The notes beneath the pieces were generated by a model. The model was not told the origin of the DNA. It saw only the letters and a list, made by a program, of their open reading frames with translations, and did not search any database. DNA of 44,861 nt from Natrinema versiforme JCM 10478 (GTDB taxonomy: Archaea > Halobacteriota > Halobacteria > Halobacteriales > Natrialbaceae). Numbering within the stretch: position 1 is the stretch's first letter; every line of letters begins with the position of its first letter. Below are positions 26,087 through 39,101 of this stretch, piece by piece. The DNA lies in the NCBI RefSeq assembly GCF_000337195.1, contig NZ_AOID01000028.1, positions 1 through 44,861 of the forward strand, given 5' to 3'. A program made the translations under genes and the position numbers.

Positions 26087-29074
26087 TTACTCGGATTCGG
26101 TGTAGATGTGACAGGCTGCGGGGTGGTCGCTGTCGTCGAGTACGGGGTCTTTCCGTTCGCAGACGCTCTCGAACGTGTCCGTCAGGACGGCCTCGGCGGC
26201 TTCCCAGTCGCCGTCGTCGAGGTGCCGATAGGACTCCTCGACCGCCTCGCGAGCGCGACCGGAGAGCGGTTCGTCGAAGAACTGCGCGTTGAGCGCGGCT
26301 GTCAGGTCACTACCACCGTCCGCGACCGCGCGAGGCGGCGGCGATTCGGCGACGACTTCGTTGCGGGCCGCCTCGAGGTCGATGTCCCGGGACTCTACGC
26401 GCTGTCGGTAGAACATGACCTCGCGGTAGCGTTCCTGTTCGATGTCGAGGTCGTCAGGTGGGATGATCGACGGACACCGCGTCCGGAAGTGACAGCCCGA
26501 TGGCGGATCGATCGGGGACGGCACGTCCCCTTTCAGGATGGTGCGGTCGTCGGTGTCGGCCAGCGGGTCCGGTTCGGGAATCGCCGACAGCAACGCGTTC
26601 GTATACGGGTGTTGCGGGTCGGCAAACAGCTCGTCAGTCTCGGCGATCTCGACGAGCTCGCCGAGGTACATCACCGCGACGCGGTCCGAGATGTGCCGAA
26701 CGACAGAGAGGTCGTGGGCGATGAACAGGTACGTCAGCCCGAACTCCTCTTGTAGGTCCTCCAAGAGGTTGATGATCTGTGCCTGCACGGAGACGTCCAG
26801 AGCCGACACCGGCTCGTCGGCGACGATGAAGTCGGGGTCTACCGCGAGGGCGCGGGCGATGCCGACGCGCTGGCGCTGGCCGCCCGAGAGTTCGTGGGGG
26901 TAGCGGCCGTACTGGCTCTCGTCGAGTCCGACCTCCTCGAGGAGTTGGAGGACGCGTCGGCGCCGCAGCAGGCGCTTGGAGTCGCCGGCGGATACCGACA
27001 CGTCGACGGCGGTGACGCGGCCGTCCTCACGGGTAACGTCGGTCTGGACGCCGAGCGCGCCCTCGATGTCCACGGTCACGTCGTCGCCGACAGTTACCGA
27101 TACCGGGACGACCGTCTCGCCGTCGGTACTTCCCAGGAGTGCGTCCGCGTTGTCCGAAACCTCGACGGAGACGGCGTCCTCGCTAATGCCCTCGACGGTC
27201 ACGTCCGCACGCGTGACGACATCGGGGTCGCTCTCCGGAAGGCCGTGTATCTTCAGCGGTTCCATGACCGTCTGCCCGACGGACATCCGCGGATCGAGAC
27301 TCGACATCGGGTCTTGGAACACCATCTGCATGTCCTTGCGCTTCTCCCGGAGTTCAGTCTTCGAGAGGTCGCCGAGGTCCTCGCCGGCGAACACGACTCT
27401 CCCGTCGGTCGGCGGGTTGAGGTGGAGGATTGCCCGCCCCGCGGTCGACTTGCCGCAGCCGGACTCGCCGACCAACCCGAGCGTCTCGCCCTCGTGGACA
27501 TCGAAGCTCACGCCGTCGACGGCTTTCACGCTCGGCTTCTCACCCATGAACCGATCGAGGTAGCCGTCTTCTTGCTGGTAGTACTTCCGCATCTCGCGGA
27601 TTTCGAGGATCGGCTCGCCGATATCGTGTTCGACCGCCGATACGGCGTCGTCGTTGCCGTACTCGTCCTCGTCGAAAGACTCGAGGAGACACTTCGAGCG
27701 GTGGTCGACATCGTCGGGACCGTGCTGGCGGAACTGGATTTCGCCGTCGCGACACTCGGGTTTGGCCCACGGACACCGGTCGGCGAAGTGACACCCTTCG
27801 GGCATGTCGATGAGGTCGGGAACGTTCCCCTCGATGGGCGTTAGGCGGTCTTTCTCCTCCGTTGGGATGGATTCCAAGAGCGTGTACGTATACGGGTGGC
27901 TCGGATCGGCGAAGATTTCCTCGACGGGCCCCACCTCGACGATCTCGCCGGCGTACATCACCGCGACCCGGTCGCAGGTCTCCGCGACCACGCCGAGGTC
28001 GTGGGTGATCATCAGCACCGACATCCCGAACTCGTCTTGGAGGTCGTCGATGAGGTCGAGAATCTGGGCCTGAATGGTCACGTCGAGGGCGGTCGTCGGC
28101 TCGTCGGCGATGAGAAGGCTCGGCTGACACGCGAGCGCGATGGCGATGAGGACCCGCTGGCGCATCCCGCCGGAGAACTCGTGGGGGTACTCCTCAAGGC
28201 GCGTCGTGGCCTCCGGGATGCCGACCTCGGTAAGAATGTCCACGACATCTTCCATGACCTCCTCGTCGTGTTCTTGCCCGCCAATGGACGGCAGAATCTC
28301 TCGGATGGCATTGAGCCACGTGTCCCGTTTCCGTTCGCCGTACTGATGGAGCCGCAGGGACTCCGCGACCTGCTCGCCGACGGTCACCGCGGGGTTCAGA
28401 GAGGTCATCGGGTCCTGGAAGATCATCCCCATCTCGCTGCCGCGGACCTTCCGCATCGCTTCCTCAGGGGCGTCGATCAGGTCGACGACGCCGTCCTCGA
28501 CTGCGATCTCGCTGGCGGCTGCGCCGCTTGCGAATTGCTCGCGTGCTGTCTCGTCCAGATAGACGAACCCGTCGTCGGCGTCGTCGAGGGCGTTCTCTAC
28601 AGTATCCGCAACCACGGACTCGGTCGCGCCCTCGTCAAGCCGGTCGGCGGACTCTCGCAGCGTCGGTGCGAGCCCCGCGGGATCGTCGTGGCCGGCGAGG
28701 TCCGCGGCTATCCCGCGCAGTTCCGAGCCGGCCGAGTCGACCCCGTCGCCGACGCGGAGATCCGCGATGAGTTCCCGAACCGCGTCGATGAGTTCGAAGG
28801 GATACGGGACGACGGCACCGTCGAACTCGTCCGCGAGGTCCGCGGCGAGTGCCGCGCGTCGCAGGGTCACGCGGCCGCCGACGACGTCGCCGGGGTCGTC
28901 GACGAGATCCATCGCTGAGAGGGCAGTCACGCTCTTACCGGACCCGGACTCGCCGACGAGGCCGACGGTCTCGCCCTCTTCGATGGTGAGGTCGATCCCG
29001 TCGACGGCTTTAACTGCACCGCGTTTGGTGTCGAACTGCGTGCGGAGTCCGGAGAGGGATAGAAGGTCAGTCAC
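26087..29074 (-). CDS. Fused double ABC ATPase of the peptide-type importer (DppD-DppF fusion) with two inserts
   Basis: A 995-residue single chain carrying both importer ATPases. Domain 1 (1-465): Walker A GESGSGKS 41-48, Q-loop [11 protein letters not shown] near 219, signature SGGMRQR near 301, Walker [14 protein letters not shown]-loop THDL and a Cys cluster (CHFADRC...C). Domain 2 (488-880): Walker [10 protein letters not shown] near 536, Q-loop [11 protein letters not shown] near 586, signature SGGQRQR near 730, Walker B FIVADEP and HDL. Domain 1 carries an extra ~130 residues (about 68-198) between Walker A and the Q-loop; domain 2 carries ~87 residues (about 612-698) between Q-loop and signature. 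A helical tail follows 880. The start is GTG 29074 because the homology begins there. The gene is transcribed ahead of the receptor gene. Confidence 0.9.
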
Positions 29075-29156
29075 TGGCGACAGTTCTCGAGGGAGCGAAG
29101 AAATACCTTGTGGGATTTGGACAACATTTATCTCCGGCGGTGCACGCGGTGGGGGC
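29075..29156. promoter_or_regulatory. Divergent promoter region (importer ATPase and 29157 gene)
   Basis: On the plus strand, ACATTTATC (29124-29132) lies about 26-33 bases before ATG 29157. On the minus strand, AAGGTATTTC (about 29101-29110) lies about 30 bases before GTG 29074. Both genes therefore look leaderless with face-to-face promoters in 82 bases. Confidence 0.5.
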
Positions 29157-29651
29157 ATGAGCGAAAATCCAGCGGGCACTTCCCCGAGAAGCGCACAGGA
29201 CCAGTCCGGCTGGCAGGCGGTTCTCGAGGACATGACGGCGATCGCCGACGACTACCGTGACCGCGGCTGGACGGCCCTCGAGCTCCATCCCGGGGACTCC
29301 GTGCTCGTGGACTCCGAGCGACGCACGGGCCTCGACGTCGTCCTGCCCGGACCCGAGTACGAGGACCTCGAGTCGCTGACTGAGGACACAACGTTCGCGG
29401 ACGTGGACGTGTTCCGCGCGGAAGAGGGCGGCATGATCTACCTGCTGATCGTCGAACAGGCTCCGACCGACGAGACGGCCGTCCTCGTTCCGGCCTACTA
29501 CGATACCGGCTCCGGGCAGACAGCGCTCGAGACCGTCCGATCGGCGGGCGAACTGCGGCTGTTCTGTCGGCGACTGAACGACGACTACGTTGAGTTCGTC
29601 CACGACGACGTCGCGCCGTTTCTCCCCGAAGCGTTCGCGGACGCCGAGTAA
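29157..29651 (+). CDS. Conserved haloarchaeal protein of unknown function
   Basis: A 164-residue acidic soluble protein starting at ATG 29157, with a TATA-like box 26-33 bases upstream. It opens with a Ser/Gln-rich tail, then a helix ([20 protein letters not shown]) and a mostly beta region ([50 protein letters not shown]), ending in a segment with [19 protein letters not shown]. There are no catalytic motifs or membrane segments. The pattern is typical of small halophile-only proteins; I do not recognise the family. It is divergent from the importer ATPase gene. Confidence 0.65.
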
Positions 29652-31594: not shown

Positions 31595-34500
31595 CTATCC
31601 GGCACCGGCAGTTTCGTTTCCGGTATCCGTACTCCCCTCCGCTGGTCCGGCGGACTCGCCGTCGGCTCCCGAAGCCGTGCCGTCTGTCTCTGGCGCGTCC
31701 GTCGTCTCCGCCGGCTGTTCGCCCGGCGCGTCTTCCGCGGGCGGGTCGGCCGCACCCTCATCCCCGCCGTCGGGCGTCTCGGTCGGCTCGGACTCCCCCG
31801 GCGCGGTATCGGCTTCGTTGTCCGCGCCCGGATCATCCGATTGTGCCGACTCCGCCGGCGGCTCGTCGGTTGGCTCCGATCCATCGGGCTGCTCTGCCGG
31901 CGGCGCCGGCTCCGTCGGCTCGGCCGGCTCGTCCGTCTCACCCGTCTCCGTTCCGTCGCCCGGTTCCGCGGTACCGTCCGTCTCCGCGGTCGCCGGTGCG
32001 GTCGCTTCGATCGTCACCGACGCCTGCTCGTCGTCGGTCGCGATCGTGTGCGTTGAGGTCCCCTCGGGCAGCGGCGACGAGAACTGGATCTCGGCCGACT
32101 GCCCGCCCGCGAGCGTCACGGTCTCCTCGGCGATCGGCTGGCCGTCGACGCTGTAGGTCACGGTCTGGGTCCCCTCGAGATCGCCCTGGTTCTCGACGGT
32201 TGCCGTCACCGTCGCCTCCTCGCCGGGATCGCCGGTTTCGGGCGCTGCGATATCGGTCACGGCGAACGTCGCTGGCTCACCGCTTTCCTCGACGGTCACC
32301 GTCGTCTCGGCCGTCTCGTTCTCGCTCGAGACCGCGAGCGGGTACTCGCCGGGCTCGAGGTCGCCGGTCTCGTAACTCAGCGTGGCCGTCTGGATTTCGC
32401 CGGGCTCGAGCGTCACCGGCACCGACTCGCCGGGCCCACCGCCGACGGCGATCTCGATGTCTTGGGTTCCGGCTTCGTCACCGACGTTTTCGAGGTCGGC
32501 CTCGACCGTCACGGGCTCGCCCTGTTCGACCGGGCTGTTGGTCCCAGCGATCGAGACGTCGAACGTCGCGGGGTCGCCGCTCTCCTCGATGGTCACCGTC
32601 CCTTCGGCCGTCTCGTTGTCAGTCGCGACCTCGAGCGGGTACTCCCCGGGCTCGAGGTCGTCGGTTTCGGCCGTGAACGAGACGGTCTGGTTCTCACCGG
32701 CCTCGAGCGAGACGGATTCGGAGTCAACCGCGGTCTCGCCGACCGCGAGCGAGACGTTCTGGGTACCCGCGTCGCCGCCGGTGTTCTGCACGTCGGCCTC
32801 GACCGCGAGTTGCTCACCCTGTTCGACCGGACTGTTCGTCTCCGTGATCGAAACGTTGAATGCCGCGGGATCGGCCGGCTGGATCTCGCCGGCGGTCGGC
32901 GTTGCAGCGGTCACGGGCTCGTCGTAGCCATAGTTCGCGAAGTCGGCCTGCCAGACGAGCCGTTCGTCGTCGCTCTCGGGCGTCCACTCGACGGTGAACT
33001 CGTTCTCGCCGGGTGCTAACTCGGTCGGCGGCTCGTCGGTCGTGGTTCCCTCGACGAACTCGCTGTTCCCGCTCATCGTTTCGTTGTTCGGGTTCTCGTA
33101 GCCGAAGGTCACGTTGATGGCGTCACCGCCGTCGACGGGCGTCGTCTCCTCAACCGAGAGCGACGGCAGGTCCGGTCGTGCCTCCTCGGCGCACGTCCGC
33201 ATGTCGGGGTTCGCGTAGTCGATCGACGCGAATGGGACCGCTTCCGGTGAACTGATCCCGGAGAGGTACGTCCCGAAGGTGCCGTAGTCGGGCACCTCGA
33301 CGGTCACCTCGTCGCCGTCGGTCGTCACGTTGCGCTCGTCGCCGATCTCGAAGACGATTGTCCCGTTGAACGGAGCCTCGACGTCCTCGCCGATGGCGAC
33401 GTAGTCTTCGATGATCGTGTCGCCGAAGCCGGCCTGATCGTAGAAACCCGTGCTCGCGGCGACCTGATCGCCGTCCTCGAGGGAGGCGTCGACAACCGCA
33501 CGCGAACAGCTCGTAAACTCGACATCGAAGTCCGCGAGTTCGCCGTCGACTGTGTACTCGACGGAATCCGTCTCGAGGGCCGTTCCGTCTTCGGCCGCGA
33601 CGACCGAGACGTTGAGCGTCGAATTCGCCTCGAGCGGCGGCTCGAGGTCGAACTCCGTCGGGCCGATCGTCTCGTTGGCCGCGAACGACTCGCTCTCGGC
33701 GAGTTGGGTCCCGTTTCCGTCGGTGATGGTCAGCGCGTACTCGACGGACGCGTTGGCCGAGGTGACGGTCAGCGTCTCGCCGTCGCCGGTCTGATCGGCG
33801 ACCGAGAGGTTCGCCGTCGGCTCTCCGGGCTCCGGCTCGACGACCGCGTACTCGATCGACTCGTTTGCCAGTGCCGCGTCGTCCGCCGCGGCGCGAACGG
33901 AAACGTTGACCGTCGCGTTCTCCTCGAGGGGCGGCTCGAGGTCGAGGCGCTCCTCCGCGACCGTCTCGTTCGCCTCGAACTGTTCGCTGTCGACGCGTTC
34001 CCCGTCGTACTCGGCCGTCACGACGTACGGCACGGACGCGCTCGCCGCGTCGATCTCGAGGGTCTCGCCGTCTCCCTCCTGATCGTCGACCGACAGGGTT
34101 GCCTCCGACTCGTTGGGTTGCTCTTCCCCGATCGACTGCTCGAGGACGACAGTGCCGTCGCCGTCGAGCACGACGACGTCGTCTCCGGAGGCGTTCCAGA
34201 CCGGGGTTTCGATGTCCCAGTGGAGGGTATCTTCCGTGTTCTCACCGGGACCCGTGATTACCGTGACGCTCTCGCTGGGTCCGAGGGTGAAGTCTTCGGG
34301 GAACGACAGCGGATCGTACCCCGCACCGTCGACGACCCCCTCGTCAATGCGGTCCTGCAGTGTCCACCCCGAGAAATCGAGTGTGCGGTTCCCCGTGTTC
34401 TCGAGGACGACGTACTCCTCCGTCGAATTCTCCTCCGCGACATCGATGTTGTAATCGACGGCAGTGAGCATCCCCTCGGCCTCCGGCGCGGAGTCGACGG

Positions 34501-36556
34501 TGTCGGTGTCGTTCGTCTCGTCGGTCACCGTCACGAACGCGGCGTCGAGCACTGGCGCTCCGTTGCCGGTGACGTACGGCACGTCGTCCTCGCCGTCGGA
34601 GTCGACGTAATCAAACGTCTCGTCGTCGTTCGTATCGTGATGGGCGACCGCCACGAGCGGCCCGCTCTCGTTCAGCGGCTCGTCGAGGTCGACCGTGACG
34701 TTCTCGTGCTCGCCGGCCTCGAGATAGCTCGAGACGCCGACGACGTCGTCGGGATCGGCGTCGACCGCGACGCCGCTGTAGACGGCGACGAAGCCGCCTT
34801 CCGAGAGCGACACGTCCTCGATCGTCACCTGTTCGCCGTCGCTCGTCTGATCGGCGACATCGATCGCGGCCTCGCCCTCGATCCGGTCGATCGTTTCGAT
34901 TCGCTGGACGACCTCGACCTCGACGTACTGGGAGATTAAGGTCACGTCGTCGGTGTTCTCTTGAATCGCGTAGGCGGTCGCATCGGCCGCGGTCTCCGCC
35001 GTCACGGACTGGAGTTGCGTGATGCTGATCCGCTGGGACTGGACCGCTTGGGCCGTCTCCTCGCAGGCGCTCCGCGCCGCCGTCTGGATCTGCGTGATCG
35101 ACGCCTCCTGCGATTGGACGAGCGCACCGCTCGCACCGCCGCTTGCGAGGCGCTGGACCTGCGTCACGTCGATGATCTGCGTCTGGGACACTGCTCCCTC
35201 GCTCGCCCCGAACGCGGCGGCCTGTACCTGCTCGACGGTGACTTCCTGTCGCTGGATCCCGCTGGTAACCGCGCCCTGTGCGGCCCCGGTCGCGGCGGAC
35301 TGGACCTGCGTGACCGACACCGTCTGTCGCTGGACGAGCGCGCCGCCCGCACCGCCGTCAGCGGCGGCCTGAATCTGTTCGACGGTCGCCTCCTGACTCT
35401 GGGAAATCGCGCCCTTCGCCGCGCCGAAAGAGGCCTCCTGGACCTGCGTGATCGAGATTCGCTGGATCTGCTCGATGCTGACCGATTGGATCTGTTTCAG
35501 CGATCCTCGGCTCGCGCCGCGGGCCGTCGCTTGGGTTTGCTCGACCGACACCGCCTGTTCCTGAACGAGCGCGCCCTTCGCCGCCCCGGCCGCGGCCTTC
35601 TGAATCTGCTTGATCGTCACGCGCTGGCGTTGCTCGGCCTCGACGCGCTGTTCCTGCTCGAGCACCGCGTTCGCACTGCCCTCGAGCGAGCCGGCGGCCG
35701 CGCCCGCCGCCGCGTTCTGGACGTGCTCGAGTGTCACTCGCTGGCGCTGCTCGACCGCTATCGACTGGTACTGCGTCAGGACGCCGTAGGCCGACCCCTG
35801 TGCGGCTTCCTGAATCTTCGCTACCGTTCCGATATCGTTCGCGCCGGCCTCGCTCGCGGCACCCGCGGCCGCGCCGCTGGTCGCGACCTGTAGCTGCTCG
35901 ACGCTCACGCGCTGACTCTGGGCGACCGCACCGTGTGCCGCGCCCCAGGTCGCGCTCTGCAGTTGGGTCGCGTTCACCGACTGCGATTGGGAGAGCCCGC
36001 CGCCGGTCGCGCCGCCGACCGCGTACTGGATCTGGGTTACGTTCGCCGACTGCTCCTGAATTAGCGCGCCGTGGACCGCACCCTTCGTCGCCGCTTGGAC
36101 CTGCTCGGCCTCGACGGTCTGGTACTGGGCTGCCGATTCTTGCGCGCCCTCGAGCGCCGCCGCGCGCTGCTCTTGGGTCACCTCGACCCCCTGGGACTGC
36201 ACGAGCGCGATCCCCTCGTCGACGCCGGTTTCGACGGCGTCCTCGCGGTCCCCTTGGGTCGCGACCTGCTCGTTCGTCCCATCTGCGCCAGTCGACTCGC
36301 CGTCCATCGAGGGCGACTCGAGCGATACCAGTTCGAAGTCCGAGTCAGCCGCCGGTTGGGTCCCCTGTTGGCTCCCGTTTTCCTGCAGCGTGGCCTGCGA
36401 ACCGTCTTCGGTCAACGCTGCAGCGGCCGCGTCGGTGTCCTCGTCGTCCGCGCCGATCGGTCCGAGACCACCACCGAGTAGCGGCAGCGCGACGACGCTG
36501 CCGATCATCGCGGCCGCGATCAATACGACGAGGACTGCCGTTCGATCCCGCCCCAT
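31595..36556 (-). CDS. Giant secreted multi-domain protein with Gln/Ala-rich repeat array
   Basis: A 1653-residue protein. Residues 1-30 form a signal sequence or N-terminal anchor (RTAVLVVLIAAAMIGSVVALPLL). About 120-535 is an array of some 15 units of ~23 residues with the pattern xVxQ[VIL]QxAAxGAAxGA[LV]xQxQxV. At about 567-680 lies a DUF7282-like domain (GGFVAVYSG, VVGVSSYLEAGEHENVTVDL), with two shorter relatives at about 818-1004 (DQ..DGE.L, LEPPLE.N). Residues about 698-812 look like a lamin-tail domain (EEYVVLENTGNRTLDFSGW). About 1230-1520 holds three CARDB-like beta-sandwiches (NSPVEQGE, VEADV.NTG.., LEPGEYPL). The tail from 1521 is acidic with Pro and Thr. N-glycosylation sequons are frequent. 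There is no PGF-CTERM. The start is ATG 36556, overlapping the 47-residue ORF's stop (TGATG). Confidence 0.88.
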   Translation of the reverse strand: MGRDRTAVLVVLIAAAMIGSVVALPLLGGGLGPIGADDEDTDAAAAALTEDGSQATLQENGSQQGTQPAADSDFELVSLESPSMDGESTGADGTNEQVATQGDREDAVETGVDEGIALVQSQGVEVTQEQRAAALEGAQESAAQYQTVEAEQVQAATKGAVHGALIQEQSANVTQIQYAVGGATGGGLSQSQSVNATQLQSATWGAAHGAVAQSQRVSVEQLQVATSGAAAGAASEAGANDIGTVAKIQEAAQGSAYGVLTQYQSIAVEQRQRVTLEHVQNAAAGAAAGSLEGSANAVLEQEQRVEAEQRQRVTIKQIQKAAAGAAKGALVQEQAVSVEQTQATARGASRGSLKQIQSVSIEQIQRISITQVQEASFGAAKGAISQSQEATVEQIQAAADGGAGGALVQRQTVSVTQVQSAATGAAQGAVTSGIQRQEVTVEQVQAAAFGASEGAVSQTQIIDVTQVQRLASGGASGALVQSQEASITQIQTAARSACEETAQAVQSQRISITQLQSVTAETAADATAYAIQENTDDVTLISQYVEVEVVQRIETIDRIEGEAAIDVADQTSDGEQVTIEDVSLSEGGFVAVYSGVAVDADPDDVVGVSSYLEAGEHENVTVDLDEPLNESGPLVAVAHHDTNDDETFDYVDSDGEDDVPYVTGNGAPVLDAAFVTVTDETNDTDTVDSAPEAEGMLTAVDYNIDVAEENSTEEYVVLENTGNRTLDFSGWTLQDRIDEGVVDGAGYDPLSFPEDFTLGPSESVTVITGPGENTEDTLHWDIETPVWNASGDDVVVLDGDGTVVLEQSIGEEQPNESEATLSVDDQEGDGETLEIDAASASVPYVVTAEYDGERVDSEQFEANETVAEERLDLEPPLEENATVNVSVRAAADDAALANESIEYAVVEPEPGEPTANLSVADQTGDGETLTVTSANASVEYALTITDGNGTQLAESESFAANETIGPTEFDLEPPLEANSTLNVSVVAAEDGTALETDSVEYTVDGELADFDVEFTSCSRAVVDASLEDGDQVAASTGFYDQAGFGDTIIEDYVAIGEDVEAPFNGTIVFEIGDERNVTTDGDEVTVEVPDYGTFGTYLSGISSPEAVPFASIDYANPDMRTCAEEARPDLPSLSVEETTPVDGGDAINVTFGYENPNNETMSGNSEFVEGTTTDEPPTELAPGENEFTVEWTPESDDERLVWQADFANYGYDEPVTAATPTAGEIQPADPAAFNVSITETNSPVEQGEQLAVEADVQNTGGDAGTQNVSLAVGETAVDSESVSLEAGENQTVSFTAETDDLEPGEYPLEVATDNETAEGTVTIEESGDPATFDVSIAGTNSPVEQGEPVTVEADLENVGDEAGTQDIEIAVGGGPGESVPVTLEPGEIQTATLSYETGDLEPGEYPLAVSSENETAETTVTVEESGEPATFAVTDIAAPETGDPGEEATVTATVENQGDLEGTQTVTYSVDGQPIAEETVTLAGGQSAEIQFSSPLPEGTSTHTIATDDEQASVTIEATAPATAETDGTAEPGDGTETGETDEPAEPTEPAPPAEQPDGSEPTDEPPAESAQSDDPGADNEADTAPGESEPTETPDGGDEGAADPPAEDAPGEQPAETTDAPETDGTASGADGESAGPAEGSTDTGNETAGAG
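34955..36199 (-). repeat. In-gene repeat array encoding ~15 Gln/Ala units
   Basis: This segment of the giant gene encodes tandem ~23-residue units, some with an extra strand-like insert of about eight residues (RQRVTLEHVQ, RQRVTIKQIQ, QRISITQVQ). The DNA units are diverged, not identical, so the array is old and selected at the protein level. Alternating Q-x-Q with hydrophobic residues, and A-A-x-G-A-A-x-G turns, suggest stacked beta strands or a solenoid. Confidence 0.8.
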
Positions 36557-37038: not shown

Positions 37039-37626
37039 ATGGCAACGGAACGGAACGCGGTCGATCCAGTCGCCGACAACGTCGTCCGGCAGTTCGCGCG
37101 GGCGGCGATGCTCGCGGCGCTGATGGGGGCGTCGGTCGTGGTGTCGATCCCGATCCCCCTCTCGCCGGCACCGATCACGCTGCAGGTACTGTTCGTCTTC
37201 CTCGCCGGGCTCGTCTTGGGTCCGGTCTGGGGGCCGATCTCGGTCCTGTTGTACCTCGTGACGGGTGGCGCCGGCGCGCCGGTCTTCGCCGGCATGAACG
37301 GCGGAATGGGCGTCCTGATCGGGCAGACGGCCGGCTACCTGTGGTCGTATCCGGTCGTCGCGGCGCTGATCGGCCTCATCGTCCACCGCGGGACTGCGTT
37401 GCGCGATCTGCGGCGCGTTCGACTCCCGATTCTCGTCGGCGCGCTCCTCGTGGGAACGGTCGTCATCTACGCGATGGGGACGGCCTACATGGCGTGGCTC
37501 CTTGAGATGGCGGCCTGGGAAGCCATCACGGCCGGCGCGCTCCCCTTTATCCCCGGCGAACTGCTCAAGGTCGCCGCGGCTGTCGCCATCGTCCGGTCCG
37601 GTCAGATCACGCCGGTTCGCTCGTGA
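37039..37626 (+). CDS. bioY: Biotin transporter substrate-binding (S) component BioY
   Basis: A 195-residue membrane protein, the biotin-binding S component of an ECF transporter. About six hydrophobic segments are visible. Family marks: IPIPLSPAPITLQVLFVFLAGLVLG (near 36-60), GPISVLLYLVTGGAGAPVFAGMNGGMGVLIGQTAGYLWSYP (near 65-107), AMGTAYMA and a C-terminal FIPGELLKVAAAVAI. It is followed after seven bases by the ATPase gene and then the T component, giving a complete bioYMN module. Control by biotin through BirA is predicted from the operator just upstream. Confidence 0.95.
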   Translation: MATERNAVDPVADNVVRQFARAAMLAALMGASVVVSIPIPLSPAPITLQVLFVFLAGLVLGPVWGPISVLLYLVTGGAGAPVFAGMNGGMGVLIGQTAGYLWSYPVVAALIGLIVHRGTALRDLRRVRLPILVGALLVGTVVIYAMGTAYMAWLLEMAAWEAITAGALPFIPGELLKVAAAVAIVRSGQITPVRS

Positions 37627-37633
37627 CGACGCG

Positions 37634-38338
37634 ATGATCGAGTTCCAGTCGGTCTTCCACGCGTTCGAAGACGTCCCCGTTCTCGAGGACGTATCGCTGA
37701 CGATCGACGACGGCGAATTCGTCCTGCTCGCGGGGGCAAACGGCAGCGGGAAGACGACGCTGTTGCGCCACTGCAACGGTCTGCTAACCCCCGACTCCGG
37801 TTCGGTCCTCGTCGACGGGACGCCCGTCGCGGACGACCTGATCGCCGCCCGCTCGCGCGTCGGGATGGTCTTTCAACACCCCCGCGACCAGTTCGTCGCC
37901 GCCACCGTCGGCGCGGACATCGCCTTCGGTCCGGAGAACCTCGGACTGGAACGCGAGGAAATCAACCGCCGCGTCGCGGCCGCGCTCGAGGCGGTCAACA
38001 TGACCGGTCGAGAGGACGACCGGATCGAGGCGCTCTCCGGCGGCGAGCAGTCCCGCGTCGCGATCGCGGGCGCGCTCGCGATGGACCCCACCCATCTCGT
38101 CCTCGACGAACCCTTCACCGGGCTCGACGAACCCGCGCGCCGATCGGTCCTCGAGCGACTCGAGTCGCTGTCGGCCGACGGCACCGGAATCCTGCTCGCG
38201 ACCCACGACCTCCGAGACGTGTCCGCGCTCGCGGACCGCGTCATCGCCATGCGAGACGGGCGTGTCGCCGTCGACGGACCGCTCGAGGACGCGCTGGGGG
38301 ACCTCGAAGACCTCGCGGTTCGCGTTCCGGACCGATGA
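37634..38338 (+). CDS. bioM: ECF biotin transporter ATPase BioM
   Basis: A 234-residue ABC ATPase of the CbiO/EcfA type. Walker A GANGSGKTT (about 33-41), Q-loop VFQHPRDQFVAATVGADIAFGPENLG (the ECF-type extended Q-loop), signature LSGGEQSRVAIAGALAM near 133, Walker B LVLDEPFTGLD and switch His ATHDL. The start is ATG 37634, seven bases after the bioY stop; the open frame to 37502 overlaps bioY and is not used. The ATPase dimer should drive biotin uptake through BioN and BioY. Confidence 0.93.
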   Translation: MIEFQSVFHAFEDVPVLEDVSLTIDDGEFVLLAGANGSGKTTLLRHCNGLLTPDSGSVLVDGTPVADDLIAARSRVGMVFQHPRDQFVAATVGADIAFGPENLGLEREEINRRVAAALEAVNMTGREDDRIEALSGGEQSRVAIAGALAMDPTHLVLDEPFTGLDEPARRSVLERLESLSADGTGILLATHDLRDVSALADRVIAMRDGRVAVDGPLEDALGDLEDLAVRVPDR

Positions 38339-38396
38339 ACGAACGGGTTGAACCGCCGCGGCCAATGCGATCGACGCGGCCCGCGGGAGGGGAACG

Positions 38397-39101
38397 ATGC
38401 TGACGTTCGAACCCGACGAGACGCTCGCTCACCGACTGGACCCTCGCACGAAACTGGCGGTCCAGATCGGGTTCGCTGCCACCGCCTTAGCACATACGAC
38501 ACCGCGGGCGCTGCTCGTTCTCTCCGCGCTGACCGCAATCGCGTTGGTCGCGGCGAACGTCTCGCTTCGCCGCACCCTCGTCGCCTACCGCTTTGCCCTG
38601 CTCATCCTCGCGCTCGCACCCCTGATCGCGGGGGTCGCGTTCGGTCCGCCCTGGATCGATCGATCGGACGCCGTCGCGTCGGGGCTAGCGAGCTACCGGG
38701 TCCTGCTCATCCTGCTCGTCAGCGCCGCCTACGTGCGTTCGACGCCGATTCGGGACTCTCGAGCGGCGATTCAGCGAACGATTCCCGGCAAACCGGGCCA
38801 GATACTCGGCGTCGGCGTCGGGCTCGTCTTTCGATTCCTCCCGGTGCTCCGCAGCGATCTCCGAACGATCCGCGAGGCGATGGCCGCTCGGCTGGGAACC
38901 GAACGCGGCGCGGTCGACCGCGCCGGCACGGTCGCCGTCCTTGGGCTGACACGGGCGTTTAACCGCGCCGATCGCCTCTCGCTCGCGTTACAGGCTCGCT
39001 GTTTCGCGTGGAACCCAACGCTCCCGCCGCTTTCCTTCTCGCGAGCGGACTATCCCGTCCTCGCTTTCGCCGTCGTCCTCGCGCTGTCGACGTTCTACTG
39101 A
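38397..39101 (+). CDS. bioN: ECF biotin transporter transmembrane (T) component BioN
   Basis: A 234-residue membrane protein with about five helices. The N-terminal EPDETLAHRLDPRTKLAVQIGF is typical of EcfT/CbiQ/BioN. The two Ala-Arg coupling motifs of T components are present in its cytoplasmic helices: EAMAARLGTERG (near 162) and LALQARCFAW (near 200). A good Shine-Dalgarno GGAGG (38386-38390) sits six bases before ATG 38397, in line with internal translation in an operon message. It completes the bioYMN transporter. Confidence 0.92.
   Translation: MLTFEPDETLAHRLDPRTKLAVQIGFAATALAHTTPRALLVLSALTAIALVAANVSLRRTLVAYRFALLILALAPLIAGVAFGPPWIDRSDAVASGLASYRVLLILLVSAAYVRSTPIRDSRAAIQRTIPGKPGQILGVGVGLVFRFLPVLRSDLRTIREAMAARLGTERGAVDRAGTVAVLGLTRAFNRADRLSLALQARCFAWNPTLPPLSFSRADYPVLAFAVVLALSTFY

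Follow-up and report, generated by a model that had tools for sequence, protein, structure and literature searches.

A 44,861-nucleotide stretch of the Natrinema versiforme JCM 10478 genome (contig NZ_AOID01000028.1, positions 1 to 44,861; hereafter, the window) encodes an exported modular protein whose N-terminal part is built from Gln- and Ala-rich units of about 23 residues. A sequence-only reading had likened these units to β-solenoids and amyloid-like adhesins such as curli, which raises the question of what fold they adopt and whether they belong to any known repeat family. The best explanation, held here with modest confidence, is an all-helical solenoid with one helix per ∼23-residue unit, serving as the scaffold of an exported, probably cell-surface protein.

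Domain architecture and export

The open reading frame occupies positions 31595-36556 of the reverse strand (ATG at 36556, stop at 31595; 1653 amino acid residues), and all features listed below lie on the same strand. The protein starts with a putative export segment (residues 1 to 25; 36482..36556), a hydrophobic stretch with the conserved sequence VVALPLLGG and an unassigned cleavage site, followed by a linker (residues 26 to 104; 36245..36481) that proved variable in identity comparisons. The repeat domain (residues 105 to 545; 34922..36244), delineated with a family scoring matrix as about 15 to 17 units of ∼23 residues, precedes a DUF7282 domain (Pfam PF23951; residues 563 to 676; 34529..34870; E = 7.9e-37) and a lamin-tail domain (LTD, Pfam PF00932; residues 709 to 804; 34145..34432; E = 9e-13). 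These are followed by two similar domains of ∼90 residues that have no Pfam match but are kept in relatives (residues 820 to 1005; 33542..34099), a domain that also occurs in a second protein of the same genome (residues 1010 to 1130; 33167..33529), three CARDB stretches (residues 1235 to 1510; 32027..32854; Pfam, E = 4e-12), and an acidic low-complexity tail (residues 1511 to 1653; 31598..32026; D+E 28.7%, K+R 0%) without a membrane anchor. The DUF7282, lamin-tail, and CARDB domains that had been suspected behind the array are thus all recognized by Pfam; an NCBIfam search with the whole 1653-residue protein returned no match. The duplication of CARDB domains is still visible in the DNA as a tandem array with a 297-bp period and 75% matches (window positions 32259-32873). 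Extreme low-complexity tails (poly-EEP, EEADEEE, and TETPTE) are also found in the relatives at loci L100, L107, and L109.

Hydrophobic N-terminal export segments, called by hydrophobicity of the sequence rather than by a dedicated signal-peptide predictor, are present in the window protein and in 41 of 41 complete relatives, four of which carry a twin-arginine (Tat) motif. This supports the earlier proposal of a signal sequence in front of the array and the prediction of an exported, surface-type protein. The same proposal had placed the repeat at the membrane end of the molecule, which the comparison does not support: a hydrophobic membrane anchor is found at the C termini of five of the 41 complete relatives, so that the repeat of these proteins is expected to lie far from the membrane, and the window protein has no hydrophobic anchor at its C terminus. 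Short repeat proteins with a twin-arginine signal are encoded at four loci, L040:1062-2729 (+), L041:1098-2141 (-), L112, and L172.

The repeat array and its novelty

A position-specific scoring matrix built from the family recognizes 14 units in residues 147 to 506 of the window protein, starting at residues 147, 170, 193, 216, 242, 273, 312, 335, 366, 389, 412, 438, 461, and 484, compared to a mean of 0.02 units and a maximum of 1 in 200 shuffles of the same stretch. Gln residues recur most strongly at lag 23 (autocorrelation 0.47), followed by lags 8 (0.42) and 31 (0.32), about 7 to 10 standard deviations above the values in shuffled sequences (SD 0.046, maxima 0.15 to 0.20). The spacing of the units is mostly 23, with insertions of 2 to 3, 8, and 16 residues; the 8-residue extras found in some turns copy the Q-x-Q spacing. 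Since degenerate units lie on both sides of the 14 scored ones (residues 105 to 146 and 507 to 545), the previous count of about 15 units of ∼23 residues is correct. These units share a mean identity of 42%, and Tandem Repeats Finder detects no DNA-level array over the repeat domain, in agreement with the view that they have diverged at the DNA level. At locus L110 (G183:C28:412000-416500), the repeat open reading frame of a relative gives way to unrelated Arg-rich sequence close to its end and looks like a frameshifted copy or an assembly error.

The repeat of the window protein had been thought to belong to no named family, and searches of Pfam, NCBIfam, PHROGs, and PDB sequences indeed produced no match; Pfam, PHROGs, and PDB sequences gave none for the wider family either. 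No account of this repeat was found in literature searches. As far as these tools show, the repeat family is undescribed, albeit of a known general kind.

Anatomy of the repeat unit

Units collected by their Gln motifs only (n = 1463, Neff = 352) consist of two halves, positions -8 to +2 and positions 3 to 14. The first half has the pattern Q x Q x [VA] [STND] [VI] x Q [IVL] Q and varies at positions -7, -5, -3, and -1, in strict period-2 alternation. The second half, x A A x G A A x G A [LVI] x, varies at positions 3, 6, 10, and 14; its conservation follows a 3.6-residue period, and its variability has a helical period of 96 to 100 degrees, with the best value at 96 (permutation p = 0.02 at 100). 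Gly is found at position 7 in 73% and at position 11 in 74% of the units, which corresponds to GxxxG spacing. Position -3 is occupied by Ser, Thr, Asn, or Asp in 89% of the units, as in a helix N-cap, and position +1 by Ile, Leu, Val, Met, or Phe in 83%, which together with the Val/Ala at position -4 resembles a hydrophobic staple. In a looser set of units, Pro occurs mainly at positions -1 (3.3%) and -2 (1.1%), within the first helix turn, and the degenerate N-terminal units of some relatives, such as HPDANPDRIRSAATGAAHGAF, read as plain helix starts. Judging from the sequence alone, the unit reads as a helix that is capped at position -3 and extends to about position 14; a single stripe (positions -1, 3, 6, 10, and 14) would be exposed, and the other sides consist of Ala and Gly together with a few aliphatic residues.

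For an exported haloarchaeal protein, the repeat domain is poor in acidic residues (D+E 9.5%, versus 23.9% in the domains that follow it and 24 to 29% over the rest of the protein), as would suit tight packing or assembly of the domain. Loop position -3 is enriched in N-x-S/T sequons, with 102 seen against 61 expected (p = 1e-11); in the window protein, they occur at residues 172 and 195.

Structure prediction and possible helix packing

An AlphaFold2 model of the full array, calculated from an alignment of 12 sequences, showed a ∼17-residue helix and a 6-residue loop in each unit (fragment residues 46-62, 69-85, 92-108, and so on). Its pLDDT values are mostly 67 to 92 over the first ∼160 residues, i.e., units 1 to 6 only (residues 105 to 264; 35765..36244), and below 50, falling to about 20, for most of the remaining array; the helices came from the best model, the other four of the five being poor throughout. 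The periodicity, the cap at position -3, and the coevolution described below agree with stacked helices, the model of the remaining array being unreliable. A second model, of residues 385 to 529 (six later units, with non-overlapping repeat rows), consisted of strands; with its pLDDT of 44 and its contradiction of the first model, it was set aside as evidence. Foldseek searches of the PDB with both models returned nothing significant. The best hits of the first model were to designed helical repeats (E = 0.14), and the matches of the second model to pore proteins were dismissed as noise from a bad model.

A mean-field coupling analysis of neighboring-unit pairs (n = 682, Neff = 270) gave its top score (z = 5.9) to position 12 and position 5 of the next unit. 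Val12 is paired with Ala5 in 41 of 44 cases and Gly12 in only 3 of 79; Gly12 is paired with Thr, Cys, or Ser at position 5, an apparent size compensation. The weaker pairs sum to 15 to 18, and the antiparallel band at sums of 16 to 18 has an uncorrected p of 0.015; one parallel band is also nominally significant (p = 0.003). The top coupling and the weaker pairs suggest antiparallel neighbors that would cross near the two glycines. Among the exposed positions, those of units 1 (His), 3 (Trp/Tyr and His), and 5 (Glu, Gln, and Tyr) are conserved, as are those of units 8, 10, and 12, whereas the units between them vary (p = 0.017 in the chosen phase and 0.07 if the phase is left free). Such alternation would follow if alternate helices face opposite sides, and an additional, degenerate helix between units 6 and 7 would explain the change of phase. 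Taken singly, the coevolution and alternation tests are weak and suggestive rather than conclusive; they draw on related sequences, and several bands were tried.

The main rival of the helical reading is a β/α solenoid resembling leucine-rich repeats, in which QxQxVxVxQ would form a strand of a parallel sheet with Gln ladders and the Ala/Gly-rich segment a short helix on the opposite side. The strand-like alternation of the first half keeps such a fold in consideration: period-2 alternation (-8 to +2) and a helical period (3 to 14) coexist within a unit, couplings likewise occur at a separation of 2 in the first half and of 3 to 4 in the second, and the 8-residue insertions preserve the Q-x-Q register, as an extra strand would. 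The alternation and the separation-2 signal are, however, partly due to the N-x-T sequon. Furthermore, position -3, which would be in the middle of the strand, has a helix-capping residue in 89% of the units, the conserved hydrophobic residue at +1 breaks the alternation, the confident AlphaFold2 segment contains no strand, and helices all facing the same way would not predict the alternate-unit conservation of the exposed positions. This fold is accordingly regarded as unlikely, although well worth keeping in mind. That the Gln motif is able to stand alone is seen in the protein at locus L041, whose QSQSVDVSQSQ stretches are not followed by a helix half.

The proposed analogy to a β-solenoid or amyloid-like adhesin of the curli type fared worse. 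Curli (CsgA) repeats resemble the unit in having a length close to 23 and Gln at fixed positions, but the unit has an Ala/Gly-rich helical second half and unit-specific conservation. The curlin repeat consensus is S-x5-Q-x-G-x2-N-x-A-x3-Q; the unit studied here has Ala at +4/+5 and Gly at +7 and +11 and lacks the conserved core Asn. The window protein and 12 family members have no curlin match at E values of up to 1, and no csg secretion or nucleation genes were seen among the genes flanking the repeat gene. The units keep their own identity across genera, unlike interchangeable amyloid repeats, and the 3.6-residue period, the N-cap signature at position -3, and the all-helical confident AlphaFold2 segment all point away from strands, which were seen throughout the second model only at a pLDDT of 44. 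Haloferax volcanii biofilms do take up amyloid dyes, but the protein behind this staining is only a guess (PMC4180959), and a curli-type fold of the repeat appears very improbable. Least likely of all is a disordered or low-complexity spacer in which composition matters rather than fold: it would account for the low pLDDT that AlphaFold2 assigns to the central units but not for near-invariant positions across families, the conserved unit count and unit-specific residues, a dN/dS of 0.15 to 0.34, or conservation at least equal to that of the adjoining Pfam domains.

Phyletic distribution and conservation

Each of the 29 Natrinema genomes (that of the window and 28 others) has the array once, the closest named full-length relatives being those of Natrinema ejinorense and N. 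salsiterrestre, with 83 to 84% identity in the repeat. The array occurs in 124 of the 392 sampled genomes of the order: 80 of the 96 genomes of the same family, Natrialbaceae (two of them weakly matching), and 44 from four further families. The sample of the phylum (393 genomes) contained no match outside the order; coverage of genomes beyond the phylum consisted of one pattern-limited scan. A virus or phage origin of the repeat was rejected, with no match in IMG/VR or INPHARED, and only two plasmids, both haloarchaeal, carry a relative.

Orthologous units share 84 to 87% identity with other Natrinema, 69 to 71% with other genera of the family, and 51 to 55% with Halorussus and Haladaptatus, versus 42% among the units of the window protein. 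Each unit is closer to its ortholog in another genus than to its neighbors, and a recent tandem expansion can be dismissed on these grounds. The repeat is 68 to 84% identical to its relatives, compared to 31 to 52% for residues 1 to 104. It is the best-conserved large part of the protein, equaling or exceeding the adjoining Pfam domains; the compared relatives either lack the lamin-tail domain or align poorly over it, and the CARDB content and the tail differ between them. With pairwise dN/dS values of 0.15 to 0.34, the suggestion that selection keeps the pattern is supported. These sequence comparisons mark the repeat as an ancient and strongly conserved module.

Gene neighborhoods

The genes flanking the repeat gene code for BioY, an ABC ATPase, a CbiQ-type permease, DUF7545, DUF5799, and Usp. 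The first three form a divergently oriented biotin-type ECF transporter gene set at window positions 37039-39101 (+). In Natrialbaceae, the repeat gene lies between this biotin transporter operon and the DUF7545/DUF5799 genes in a conserved order, and bioYMN adjoins it in those examined loci that hold the flank. In Halorussus and Haladaptatus, the repeat gene has other neighbors and bioYMN is not adjacent, so that gene surroundings do not reveal its function; a link to biotin uptake was rejected as mere synteny. Elsewhere in the window, positions 26087-29233 (-) encode a 1048-residue protein in which two ABC ATPases of the peptide/nickel type appear to be fused, together with additional segments; it is intact in N. 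ejinorense (85% identity).

Proposed organization and comparison with known repeats

In the all-helical solenoid proposed here, the N-terminal ∼440 residues would form a row of short helices, one per 23-residue unit. Each unit would open with the loop Q-x-Q-x-V-[S/T/N/D], whose last residue caps a ∼17-residue helix, V-x-Q-I-Q-x-A-A-x-G-A-A-x-G-A-L-x. The Ala residues and the Gly residues of GxxxG could allow very close antiparallel packing of neighboring helices into a rigid rod in which alternate helices occupy opposite faces; the conserved Gln pairs flanking the turns would probably hold them by hydrogen bonds. The face on which alternate units display conserved His, Trp/Tyr, and Glu/Gln may be a binding or assembly surface. 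As the scaffold or adhesin stalk of a protein that would often be surface-anchored, the rod could then present the variable Ig-like domains of the C-terminal part (DUF7282, CARDB, and in some cases LTD) at the cell surface or hold them at a distance from each other.

A stack of antiparallel helices, as inferred for the repeat, is also the common feature of HEAT, ARM, TPR, and PPR solenoids and of designed helical repeat proteins (DHRs), the nearest, although not significant, PDB structures to the first AlphaFold2 model. The natural helical repeats have larger, multi-helix units, such as ∼40 residues with two helices in HEAT and 31 to 36 residues in PPR (PMC11514114), compared to ∼23 residues and one helix here, and none of the TPR, HEAT, ARM, PPR, and other Pfam α-solenoid models matches the repeat. 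Gly-zipper Pfam models share its GxxxG spacing, but only one of 12 members reaches an E value of 0.66, and the many Gln and charged residues argue against membrane helices. The C-terminal domains of the window protein fall in the Pfam families of haloarchaeal CARDB/DUF7282 surface proteins; the repeat itself lies outside both families and occurs without them in Haladaptatus. Tentatively, these repeats might represent a solenoid class of their own, with 23-residue one-helix units, GxxxG-zipped helices, Gln-paired turns, and alternating faces, making a salt-stable, weakly charged extracellular rod within haloarchaeal surface proteins that are very acidic elsewhere.

Implications

An undescribed domain, so far without functional annotation, is under strong purifying selection in most members of one large haloarchaeal family and also occurs in several other families. 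If the helical model is true, the known repeat types gain one whose single-helix unit is unusually short, and the domain illustrates how extracellular proteins can function in near-saturated salt with few acidic residues. For studies that look for surface scaffold or matrix proteins of haloarchaea, the repeat gene is a concrete candidate.
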